Of a DNA stretch of 64,000 nt, positions 2,785 through 33,804 are shown in pieces. The stretch comes from Ignavibacteriota bacterium. GTDB lineage: Bacteria; Bacteroidota; Ignavibacteria; UBA10030; BY39. A model generated the notes under the pieces. It was not told where the DNA came from, made no database searches, and saw nothing but the letters and a program-made list of their open reading frames with translations. The stretch spans positions 62,001-126,000 of the forward strand of contig QOQV01000001.1 of assembly GCA_003327435.1 (NCBI GenBank), given 5' to 3'. The translations under genes were made by a program, and so were the position numbers. Every line of letters begins with the position of its first letter. Position 1 is the first letter of the stretch.

Positions 2785-3483
2785 TCATTTATTAAAATAC
2801 CTTAAGAATTCCATTTTAGCTTTTTCTGAGTATCTATTGAATTTTAACATATCTTCCAATAATTCTTCGGAATCTTTTAACAACAAATTAAATATTTTTA
2901 TGGCTTTATCATAATTTGTGGTGGTTGAATAATATTCGCGACGCATAATATTATGGAAACTCCTCGCTGTGAGATGTAACAAAGTTTGTGTATATGCCAT
3001 TATTTTATCATGTTTTTGAGGAGTCATCTCAATAATTTCCAACCCAAACTTGAATAATTCCTTTTTTATAATATTGTAATACTCTTGTTTAATCCTGATA
3101 GGATAGAGGATAATTTTATTATTTCGTGAACCTTGTTTAAATGAGTCTGGTCCAAATAACGGATGGGTACCTAATAAATTTACATTTTTGGGTAAATATT
3201 TTTTCATCAATCTTACAGGGTATTCTTTTACTGAACAAACGTCAATAATTATGCTATCTTCTCTCAGAAATTGTTTTATTGATATTAATACATCTTTAAA
3301 ATTTCTAATACTTACTGATATGATTACAATATTTTTTGAAGCTGCGCTGCTCAAATTACATACTGTAACTCCTGGTAAAGGTTTAATTTTTTTTATATCA
3401 TAAGCAAACACATCAAAGTAATTCTTCATATGTTTACTTAAAAACCTACCAAATCTACCATAACCAATTATACCGACAGTCAT
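2785..3483 (-). CDS. tyrA: Prephenate dehydrogenase (TyrA family)
   Basis: The enzyme converts prephenate oxidatively to 4-hydroxyphenylpyruvate, the step committed to tyrosine. The 232-residue protein opens with a Rossmann nucleotide-binding motif, GIIGYGRFGRF (residues 4-14). It has the TyrA signature GTHPLFGPDS near residue 110 and a helical C-terminal dimerisation region. It is short for the family and lacks an ACT domain, so product feedback would have to act elsewhere. Its ATG overlaps the stop of the chorismate mutase gene by 4 bp. This gives the order DAHP synthase, chorismate mutase, prephenate dehydrogenase, a complete tyrosine-branch unit apart from the central shikimate steps. I infer control by the leader attenuator upstream of the operon. 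Confidence 0.85.
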   Translation of the reverse strand: MTVGIIGYGRFGRFLSKHMKNYFDVFAYDIKKIKPLPGVTVCNLSSAASKNIVIISVSIRNFKDVLISIKQFLREDSIIIDVCSVKEYPVRLMKKYLPKNVNLLGTHPLFGPDSFKQGSRNNKIILYPIRIKQEYYNIIKKELFKFGLEIIEMTPQKHDKIMAYTQTLLHLTARSFHNIMRREYYSTTTNYDKAIKIFNLLLKDSEELLEDMLKFNRYSEKAKMEFLRYFNK

Positions 3484-3767
3484 TTTGCCCTCTGTATTTT
3501 TCTTGAATATATGAAAATTGTTCTATAAATATTTTGCACCATTTTACCATCCAAACAATATTTTTTTGCTTGTTTGAGTTGTTTATTTATTATAGAATTT
3601 TCTCGATGATAACTAATAATTTTTATACCATTTGCCCTTTTATATTCTCCAATTTGTTCAATTAATTTTTGTCGTTTATTTAAAAGATACAACAATTTTT
3701 CATCAATTTTATCAATTTTATTTCGCAATATCTGTAAGTTATTATTCTTAATACTATTGTTTTTCAT
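3480..3767 (-). CDS. Chorismate mutase, AroQ type
   Basis: This 95-residue all-helical protein is the size and pattern of a monofunctional AroQ chorismate mutase, which rearranges chorismate to prephenate. The N-terminal helix reads LQILRNKIDKIDEKLLYLLNKR, split here as LRNKIDKIDEKLL and YLLNKRQKLIEQIGEYK. This is the classic R-x-x-I-D-x-I-D-x-x-L-x-x-L-L-x-x-R motif, with the active-site arginine and lysine. The second helix follows around YHRENSIINKQL. The gene sits 13 bp downstream of the DAHP synthase gene and overlaps tyrA by 4 bp. In many Bacteroidota chorismate mutase is fused to DAHP synthase or to TyrA; here all three are separate. Confidence 0.88.
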   Translation of the reverse strand: MKNNSIKNNNLQILRNKIDKIDEKLLYLLNKRQKLIEQIGEYKRANGIKIISYHRENSIINKQLKQAKKYCLDGKMVQNIYRTIFIYSRKIQRAK

Positions 3768-3780
3768 AATTAAATTCCAA

Positions 3781-4809
3781 TTAATCTAAATTGATATTAA
3801 GTGATCGATCCACCACTTCGGCTAATTTCCGAAGTTTTAAGAGTAGATGCTTAAATCTTTCGGGTTTTAGAGATTGATATCCATCTGAAAGGGCAGATTC
3901 AGGATTCTGATGTACTTCAATGATCAAACCATCTGCACCTCCAGCAATTGCTGCCATAGACATTGATGCAACACCATCCCATATACCGATTCCATGGCTT
4001 GGGTCTACAACTATTGGTAAATGAGAAAGTCGTTTTATAATAGGTATTGCATTTAAATCAAGAGTGTTCCTTGTATATGTCTCAAAAGTTCTGATTCCCC
4101 TTTCACATAATATTACCTCGTAATTTCCGTTACTTACAATATATTCTGCTGCCATAAGAAGTTCTTCAATTGTTGCAGAAATTCCTCTCTTCAATAAAAC
4201 CGGTTTTTTGATACTTCCTGCTGCTTCAAGGAGGGCAAAATTTTGCATGTTACGAGCCCCGATCTGAATAACATCAACTGCTTTTGCAACTAATTGTAAT
4301 GTAGATACATCTTTAACTTCAGTAACTATTTTCATACCTGTCCTTTCTCTAACTTCCATCAGATACAACAAAGCTTCTTCTTTTAATCCTTGAAACGAAT
4401 ATGGCGAGGTTCGAGGTTTATAGGCACCACCACGCATAAACTTGATTCCAAAACTTGAGAGTATCTCACCAATTTCAATTATTTGTTCTCGACTTTCTAC
4501 AGAACAAGGACCTGCAATTATCGCAAGCTCTTTACCACCAATCATATGGTTACCTAACTTAATTATTGTGTTTTCCTGTTTTACTTCACGACTAACTAAT
4601 TTAAATGGCTTTGAAATTGATATTGCCTCTAATACACCCGACATATTCAAAAATAATTCAGGGTTAACGGGGGATTTATTTCCCGTAATTACTATGCCGA
4701 TTCGATTAACACCGGGTACTTCATTTGCTTTAAATCCAAGCGCACAAATTTTTTCTTTAACTGCTTCAACATCACTTTTAGTAGCGTCTGTTTTCATTAT
4801 TACAATCAT
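3781..4809 (-). CDS. aroF: 3-deoxy-7-phosphoheptulonate (DAHP) synthase, type I-beta with N-terminal regulatory domain
   Basis: DAHP synthase condenses phosphoenolpyruvate with erythrose 4-phosphate, the first step of aromatic amino acid synthesis. The 342-residue protein has a ferredoxin-like N-terminal domain (about 1-70, [17 protein letters not shown]...). In homologues this domain gives allosteric inhibition by Tyr or Phe. The KDPS-like barrel follows, with [53 protein letters not shown] and a C-terminal IIEVHQNPE metal/substrate region. The ATG at 4809 has an AGGAG site 7 bp upstream. It is the first gene of a three-gene operon behind a Tyr/Phe-rich leader peptide and terminator, so I expect both enzyme feedback and attenuation. 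Confidence 0.95.
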
Positions 4810-4841
4810 CTTGCTTCTCCTTATTGAATATTACTATTTAT

Positions 4842-4880
4842 TAAAATAAAAAACCCTACTTACTGTTCGCAAGTAGGGTT
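4842..4880 (-). terminator. Intrinsic terminator in the aroF leader
   Basis: On the minus strand a perfect 10 bp stem AACCCTACTT / AAGTAGGGTT (4880-4871 with 4861-4852) encloses a 9-base loop. It is followed at once by a T-rich run (TTTTTATTTT). The hairpin ends about 40 bp before the aroF ATG. Its 5' arm can instead pair with an upstream segment at 4921-4933, which would prevent termination. It could also stop transcripts coming from the T9SS gene at 5041-6399. Confidence 0.85.
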
Positions 4881-4898
4881 CATAAAAGCTTTTATTTA

Positions 4899-5009
4899 TT
4901 AGAAAATAAATTTATAAACACCTAATTGCGAACCGAAAAATTGATAATAATAATAGGAATAATATTCATAACGATGACAGATGGAATTTTTCGTATTTTC
5001 GGTGGTCAT
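4899..5009 (-). CDS. Leader peptide of the aro/tyr operon (36 aa, Tyr/Phe-rich)
   Basis: The reading frame starts ATG ACC ACC GAA at 5009 and stops with TAA at 4899. Residues 14-25 are YEYYSYYYYQFF: seven Tyr and two Phe in twelve residues, all Tyr codons being TAT. Three more aromatics follow before the stop (VYKFIF). Such a run is far from the composition expected of random sequence and matches the products of the downstream enzymes. There is no strong Shine-Dalgarno site (upstream is AGAAAATAAAT), as in many Bacteroidota genes. The peptide itself probably has no function beyond being translated. It begins 32 bp after the stop codon of the upstream T9SS gene. Confidence 0.8.
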   Translation of the reverse strand: MTTENTKNSICHRYEYYSYYYYQFFGSQLGVYKFIF

Positions 5010-5040
5010 ATTTATTTTCTAAATTTAATAAATTTTAAGT

Positions 5041-33282: not shown

Positions 33283-33768
33283 TTATCTTGAAATATCAAG
33301 AATTTCATATTCCAGAAATCCTGCTGGTACTTTAATCTGAACAACATCACCTATTTTTTTCCCCAATAATCCTTTTCCAATTGGTGAAGTAATAGAAATT
33401 TTATTTTCCTCATAATTTGCTTCTTCTGGAGATACAAGAATATAAGTCACTTCCTCGTTATTTTTCTTATTCTTAAGTTTCACTTTTGATAAAATATAAA
33501 TTTTATCGTTTGGTAATTCATTACTTTCGATAATTCGTGCACGAGCAAGTGTGTCTTCAATTTTTTTTATCTTAAGTTCAAGATGTTCTTGTGCTTCTTT
33601 AGCAGCATCATACTCTGCATTTTCACTGAGATCTCCGTATCCTCTTGCTTCGGCAATTTTAGCTGCAATTTCAGAACGGCCCTTTATTTTTAATTGGCGA
33701 AGTTCATTCTCAAGTTCAATGATTCTTTCTTTTGTTAAGTATACTACGTCGTTTTTCTTATTATTCAT
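33283..33768 (-). CDS. greA: Transcription elongation factor GreA
   Basis: GreA rescues backtracked RNA polymerase by stimulating transcript cleavage. The 161-residue protein has the N-terminal coiled coil with the tip acids in GDLSENAEYDAAKEAQ (about 45-60; D46, E49). The C-terminal FKBP-like domain has EANYEENKISITSPIGKGLLGKKIGD in two parts (KISITSPIGKGLLG). Length is normal. A 17 bp hairpin stands 37 bases upstream, possibly inside its own leader. Confidence 0.95.
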   Translation of the reverse strand: MNNKKNDVVYLTKERIIELENELRQLKIKGRSEIAAKIAEARGYGDLSENAEYDAAKEAQEHLELKIKKIEDTLARARIIESNELPNDKIYILSKVKLKNKKNNEEVTYILVSPEEANYEENKISITSPIGKGLLGKKIGDVVQIKVPAGFLEYEILDISR

Positions 33769-33804
33769 ATTTTACCAATCATTATATTTGTTATTACTAA
33801 AAAT

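Follow-up and report, generated by a model that had tools for sequence, protein, structure and literature searches.

Leader-peptide attenuators that respond to Trp, Phe, His, Thr, and the branched-chain amino acids are textbook examples of transcriptional control. At DAHP synthase genes, the described cases concern phenylalanine. In C. glutamicum, aroF is preceded by aroR, a leader with a Phe-Tyr-Phe sequence that, according to the summary of Neshat et al. 2014 in PMC11802643, answers Phe limitation, with no effect of Tyr availability. In Acholeplasma, the uORFC-13-1 motif is a computationally predicted upstream ORF with Phe codon(s) and a terminator at aroF (PMC8632094), and the same paper mentions a 1980 hypothesis of attenuation at E. 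coli aroF-tyrA. No leader is annotated at aroF in the E. coli record, and a scan found no terminator before that gene. By 2010, demonstrated leader-peptide systems were confined to Proteobacteria and Actinobacteria, apart from the Firmicutes case added in PMC2965389; a wider survey by Lopatovskaya et al. from the same year is cited in PMC4833913, and given that survey, trp leaders in related phyla may have been mentioned before. A literature search returned neither a Tyr-specific leader attenuator nor any leader attenuator in the lineage examined here, and the initial annotation of this locus, which knew of no described example at a DAHP synthase-TyrA operon in the lineage, is borne out to that extent.

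Results

The window, by which we mean the whole 64,000-nucleotide stretch of Ignavibacteriota DNA that was analysed, carries on its minus strand a 36-codon leader peptide ORF (MTTENTKNSICHRYEYYSYYYYQFFGSQLGVYKFIF) extending from an ATG at 5009 to a TAA at 4899 and containing 7 Tyr within 12 codons. The regulatory Tyr codons identified by the folding described below are codons 14-22 (YEYYSYYYY; 4944..4970, minus strand), and Phe codons 24-25 (4935..4940, minus strand) come after them. A Tyr density this high was found in 1 of the 1,229 small ORFs of the window, namely the leader ORF alone, and in no frame of 20 simulated 64-kb windows. All eight Tyr codons of the leader are TAT, which is the usual Tyr codon of the AT-rich window (533 TAT versus 136 TAC in long frames), and codon rarity is therefore no part of the argument. 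There was no Shine-Dalgarno-like site before the leader ORF. The sequence TAAATTTA (5020..5027, minus strand), 18 nt 5' of the leader ATG, weakly resembles the Bacteroidota -7 promoter element TAnnTTTG; an exact match occurs there in many trp leaders of the class, and was found before 13 of 37 class leaders compared with 0.9% of control windows. Because the match at the Tyr leader is weak, it suggests, rather than establishes, a leaderless start of the frame.

The genes downstream on the same strand are aroF (3781..4809), which encodes a type Ib DAHP synthase of 342 aa and has AAGGAG as a Shine-Dalgarno-like site (4817..4822); aroQ (3480..3767), which encodes a type II chorismate mutase of 95 aa; and tyrA (2785..3483), which encodes a prephenate dehydrogenase of 232 aa and whose start overlaps the aroQ stop. 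Neither tryptophan synthase alpha (trpA) nor prephenate dehydratase was detected in the genome, which is 98.6% complete; chorismate synthase is present, and the one chorismate-binding enzyme adjoins a pabC-like gene in a pabB-like setting. Since trpA and prephenate dehydratase are not detectable, the operon appears to supply Tyr and neither Phe nor Trp, making Tyr, as far as sequence can tell, its sole amino acid product; it is possible that the organism has an unrecognised Phe route, or that a gene is hidden in an assembly gap. The leader codons match this product, with a Tyr run, predicted to be translated, standing before a Tyr operon. The initial annotation had held that the enriched amino acids of the leader, Tyr and Phe, are the products of the operon, and this agrees with the gene content for Tyr but not for Phe, as prephenate dehydratase was not found. 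A second DAHP synthase gene (locus L112:5050-12367) lies in a cluster whose genes, on sequence alone, resemble those of menaquinone (futalosine) biosynthesis, and a search of that locus for a leader with a terminator was negative; the arrangement is suggestive of one DAHP synthase isozyme per branch.

Between the leader and the first gene lies an intrinsic terminator hairpin (GAACCCTACTT-GCGAACAGT-AAGTAGGGTTTTTTATTTT, then TTTATTTT; 4881-4851, minus strand), the stem of which is a perfect 10 bp (AACCCTACTT/AAGTAGGGTT, at about 4881-4851) with a T-rich tail. The 5' arm of an antiterminator, segment A (4913..4933, minus strand), was located by folding and duplex search and comprises a basal part (4933-4921) and an extension to about 4913. 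Its 3' arm, segment B (4865..4884, minus strand, from folding), has as its 3' part the 5' arm and loop of the terminator, and the antiterminator and the terminator are mutually exclusive. Of the 13 positions in the basal part of A, 12 are paired with B (4877-4865), and the best duplex takes A to about 4913. The A:B duplex has a z of -9.7 against shuffles, and among 3,876 window segments on both strands, none but B's own complement is a better partner for B than A. Free RNA covering 4940-4845 adopts the antiterminator fold (-26.6 kcal/mol, z -4.8), and a 5' hairpin of the leader RNA coexists with A:B. These results confirm two claims made earlier for the locus: a 36-codon Tyr-rich frame does lie upstream of aroF-chorismate mutase-tyrA, at 5009-4899 (minus strand) and beyond chance, and the 12-of-13 pairing of A with a segment B that doubles as the 5' arm of a perfect 10-bp terminator is far beyond chance. 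An exclusive protector hairpin (1:2) of the E. coli trp/phe type was not seen in leader folding; such a hairpin is an enteric-type feature, and not every attenuator needs one.

The same hairpin could instead serve as the terminator of the T9SS-sorted protein gene that lies upstream of the leader on the same strand, given that no other terminator was found between the stop of that gene (5041) and the hairpin; the Tyr-rich frame would then be a chance product of AT-rich intergenic DNA. Chance does yield such pairs, since a second Tyr-rich small frame before a terminator in the window (33732-33797, plus strand) is plainly of this kind and was rejected as a candidate because no gene start lies downstream on that strand. 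However, the rarity of the leader's Tyr density in the window and in simulation, the standing of A as the best partner of B across the whole window, and the recurrence before trp-aroF operons throughout the class of the order frame, A, B, C (the 3' arm of the terminator), first gene all argue against this account, which we consider improbable. T-boxes, riboswitches, and protein-controlled attenuators are in use at Tyr and aromatic genes in other phyla, and a terminator with an alternative fold is their usual output, so that control by one of them, with the ORF incidental, would produce a similar RNA. Against this, a scan of 4,227 Rfam families matched only tRNAs in the window, there was no conserved aptamer upstream, and the Tyr codons agree position-specifically with the start of A; control of this type is very unlikely.

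The leader was folded repeatedly, masking a ribosome footprint at one codon after another, and the probability of the terminator, P(terminator), was read out. With a Tyr codon in the ribosomal A site, P(terminator) was 0.46 at Tyr14, which is near the balance point between terminator and antiterminator, 0.28-0.42 at Tyr16-20, 0.06 at Tyr21, and 0.01 at Tyr22, and with the standard footprint it was 0.92-0.98 from Phe24 through the stop codon. Footprints reaching 10-14 nt downstream and 13-20 nt upstream all preserved the pattern, with Tyr14-22 at or below 0.54. In the model, then, a ribosome at the Tyr codons leaves the antiterminator arm free, and a ribosome past them blocks it. A ribosome at Phe24 or Phe25 already sits on the first bases of A, and the terminator forms, so a regulatory role for the Phe codons is unlikely; as the switch falls after the final Tyr codon and ahead of the first Phe codon, the operon is predicted to stay uninduced under Phe starvation, and the leader should sense Tyr rather than Phe.

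The initial annotation had cautioned that the leader stop codon lies 20 bases past A and had questioned how a ribosome that does not stall would mask A. At equilibrium this concern is largely answered, with a P(terminator) of 0.98-1.00 for a ribosome at the stop codon: since A:B runs past the basal 13 nt, a ribosome at that position blocks the upper A:B and the terminator wins. If the RNA stops short of the 3' arm, however, a ribosome at the stop does not keep the basal A:B from forming (0.79), whereas one on codons 26-33 does (0.03-0.22). As A:B survives the stop-codon ribosome in the shortened RNA, ribosome-polymerase timing may matter, and full termination may depend on a ribosome at codons 24-34 as the terminator emerges. 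Untranslated leader RNA favours the antiterminator (P(terminator) 0.22-0.29) and, given the absence of an exclusive protector hairpin, should read through.

The same test applied to E. coli pheL, taken from the genome record, gave a P(terminator) of 0.32 falling to 0.00 over codons 5-10 and of 0.94-0.97 from Phe12 to the stop. Equilibrium masked folding discriminated little for E. coli trpL and not at all for class Trp leaders, in which the terminator nearly always wins; the method is blind for the class Trp leaders and is thus evidence neither for nor against them. Shortened-RNA folding of the class Trp leaders showed a weak trend, the stall exceeding the stop in 14 of 37 and falling below it in 7 of 37 (Wilcoxon p 0.085).

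Taken together, the anatomy, the operon content, and the comparative context fit the attenuator reading, and along with the masked-ribosome folding they support what had been proposed from the first view of the locus. We estimate a probability of roughly 85% that the leader acts as a ribosome-mediated (leader-peptide) transcription attenuator of aroF-aroQ-tyrA, with charged tRNA-Tyr as the sensed signal. When Tyr is ample, the leading ribosome would pass the Tyr codons and move onto and beyond A; with the ribosome on A, nascent B would pair with C, the terminator would form, and transcription would end before aroF. When Tyr is scarce, the ribosome would stall in codons 14-22 and leave A unmasked, and free A would pair with B, so that no terminator would form and the operon would be transcribed. 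We infer that in the cell the leader is transcribed, its frame is translated, and stalling and read-through occur.

The family comprises 5 genomes, and tyrA is found in 3 of them, the source genome and two of the sister genus. The sister genus has a single operon, trpE-G-D-C-F-aroF-trpB-A-aroQ-tyrA, and its leader MQKINTIYYTYYRQAFYYPYWWCVSFRKWC, with a terminator (L044:7945-8115, L045:4168-4338), is rich in Tyr, Phe, and Trp and is apparently a three-amino-acid sensor. Across the class, 36 trp-operon leaders with Trp runs were collected, followed by terminators of a shared core AACCCTTCTnnG...AAGGGTTTTTT; Trp-run leaders of this kind stand before trp-aroF operons at loci L119-L167, L048, L049, L056, L058, and L171. 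In nearly all class trp operons examined, aroF lies between trpF and trpB, and one operon (G131) has a distal aroQ-tyrA and a leader containing FWYWYWF. In many class trp leaders the antiterminator arm falls on the stop codon or just 3' of it, and some class leaders have an extra early segment that, judged by eye, pairs with the frame end (in L125, CTGGGACATATT with AATATGACCCAG) and resembles the classical protector. No Rfam match was obtained at the four class leader loci scanned (L136, L125, L044, and L048). The initial annotation had looked to the leaders of orthologous aroF operons for conservation; in relatives, the position immediately 5' of aroF yielded no orthologous Tyr leader, and class trp-aroF operons carry similar Trp (or Trp/Tyr/Phe) leaders instead. 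The nearest named AroF relatives beyond the family include Ignavibacteria and Chlorobiales MAGs, which would put the window within Ignavibacteria or close to it.

Small frames rich in aromatic residues were also seen near aroF in other bacteria. In Clostridium magnum, an aroF-led operon is immediately preceded by a leader frame that contains YYFYFSWGYFYFSAGYFF and by a terminator (L222:6642-6870), and no Rfam match was obtained at this site. Two Chloroflexota MAGs have Phe/Tyr-rich small frames followed by strong terminators (L237:3024-3190 and L177:5159-5380), which lie upstream of aroF by about 200 nt and 1.7 kb, respectively.

Synteny and leader composition make it likely that the Tyr leader derives from a trp-type leader. 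An ancestral trp-aroF-aroQ-tyrA operon would have lost its trp genes while the sensing codons shifted from Trp/Tyr/Phe to Tyr, and we lean slightly toward the view that, alongside trp gene loss, a trp attenuator was re-coded to Tyr alone and kept its switch machinery. AroF is 73% identical to the AroF of the sister-genus trp operon and about 54% identical to its own paralog, the aroQ-tyrA overlap is kept in both the source genome and the sister genus, and Tyr is abundant in the sister-genus leader as well. Past the codon run, the sequence aligns with the sister-genus leader at a z of 5.4-6.2 over shuffles and ranks first of 13 terminators examined in this alignment; for the pre-terminator part alone, about 0.8% of sliding windows reach similar alignment scores by chance. 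Each of these observations, the last of them through its excess over shuffles and its rank, argues against the alternative that the same mechanism arose with a leader of independent origin rather than from the leader of a trp-aroF-aroQ-tyrA operon. That alternative, which we hold to be possible though doubtful, gains from segment A, which compared with that of most trp leaders is much stronger and lies at a greater distance 5' of the stop. It gains also from a covariance model built from trp leaders only: the site is the best match in the window (E 5e-4), but genome-wide its 32.2 bits are no better than the scores of some generic terminators (31-34 bits), and the model was dropped as a homology test because its genome-wide matches are mostly terminators.

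Discussion

The attenuator reading of the Tyr leader would extend the leader-attenuation device to a deep-branching lineage beside Bacteroidota and Chlorobiota, in a class whose trp-aroF operons apparently share one type of guarding leader. If the re-coding from a trp leader is true, the locus is a natural experiment in which the sensed amino acid tracks the content of the operon and the RNA switch persists. The narrow gap that separates segment A from the last Tyr codon makes for predictions that are both sharp and cheap.

Among known systems, E. coli pheL-pheA likewise has a run of aromatic residues in its leader, a terminator, an antiterminator, and the same masked-folding pattern; however, it involves another amino acid and other genes, no sequence relation is shown, and untranslated pheL is predicted to terminate (P 0.97), whereas the Tyr leader is predicted to read through (0.22). 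The aroR leader of C. glutamicum is likewise an attenuator before a DAHP synthase gene, but it belongs to another phylum and its signal is reported to be Phe, as opposed to the Tyr predicted here. The Acholeplasma uORFC-13-1 motif also combines an ORF and a terminator at aroF, but in a different genus and phylum, and with Phe codon(s) and no Tyr run. E. coli trpL and the Trp-run leaders of the class follow the same logic with Trp codons in place of Tyr, and the class trp leaders additionally have the terminator core and the operon context in common with the Tyr leader.
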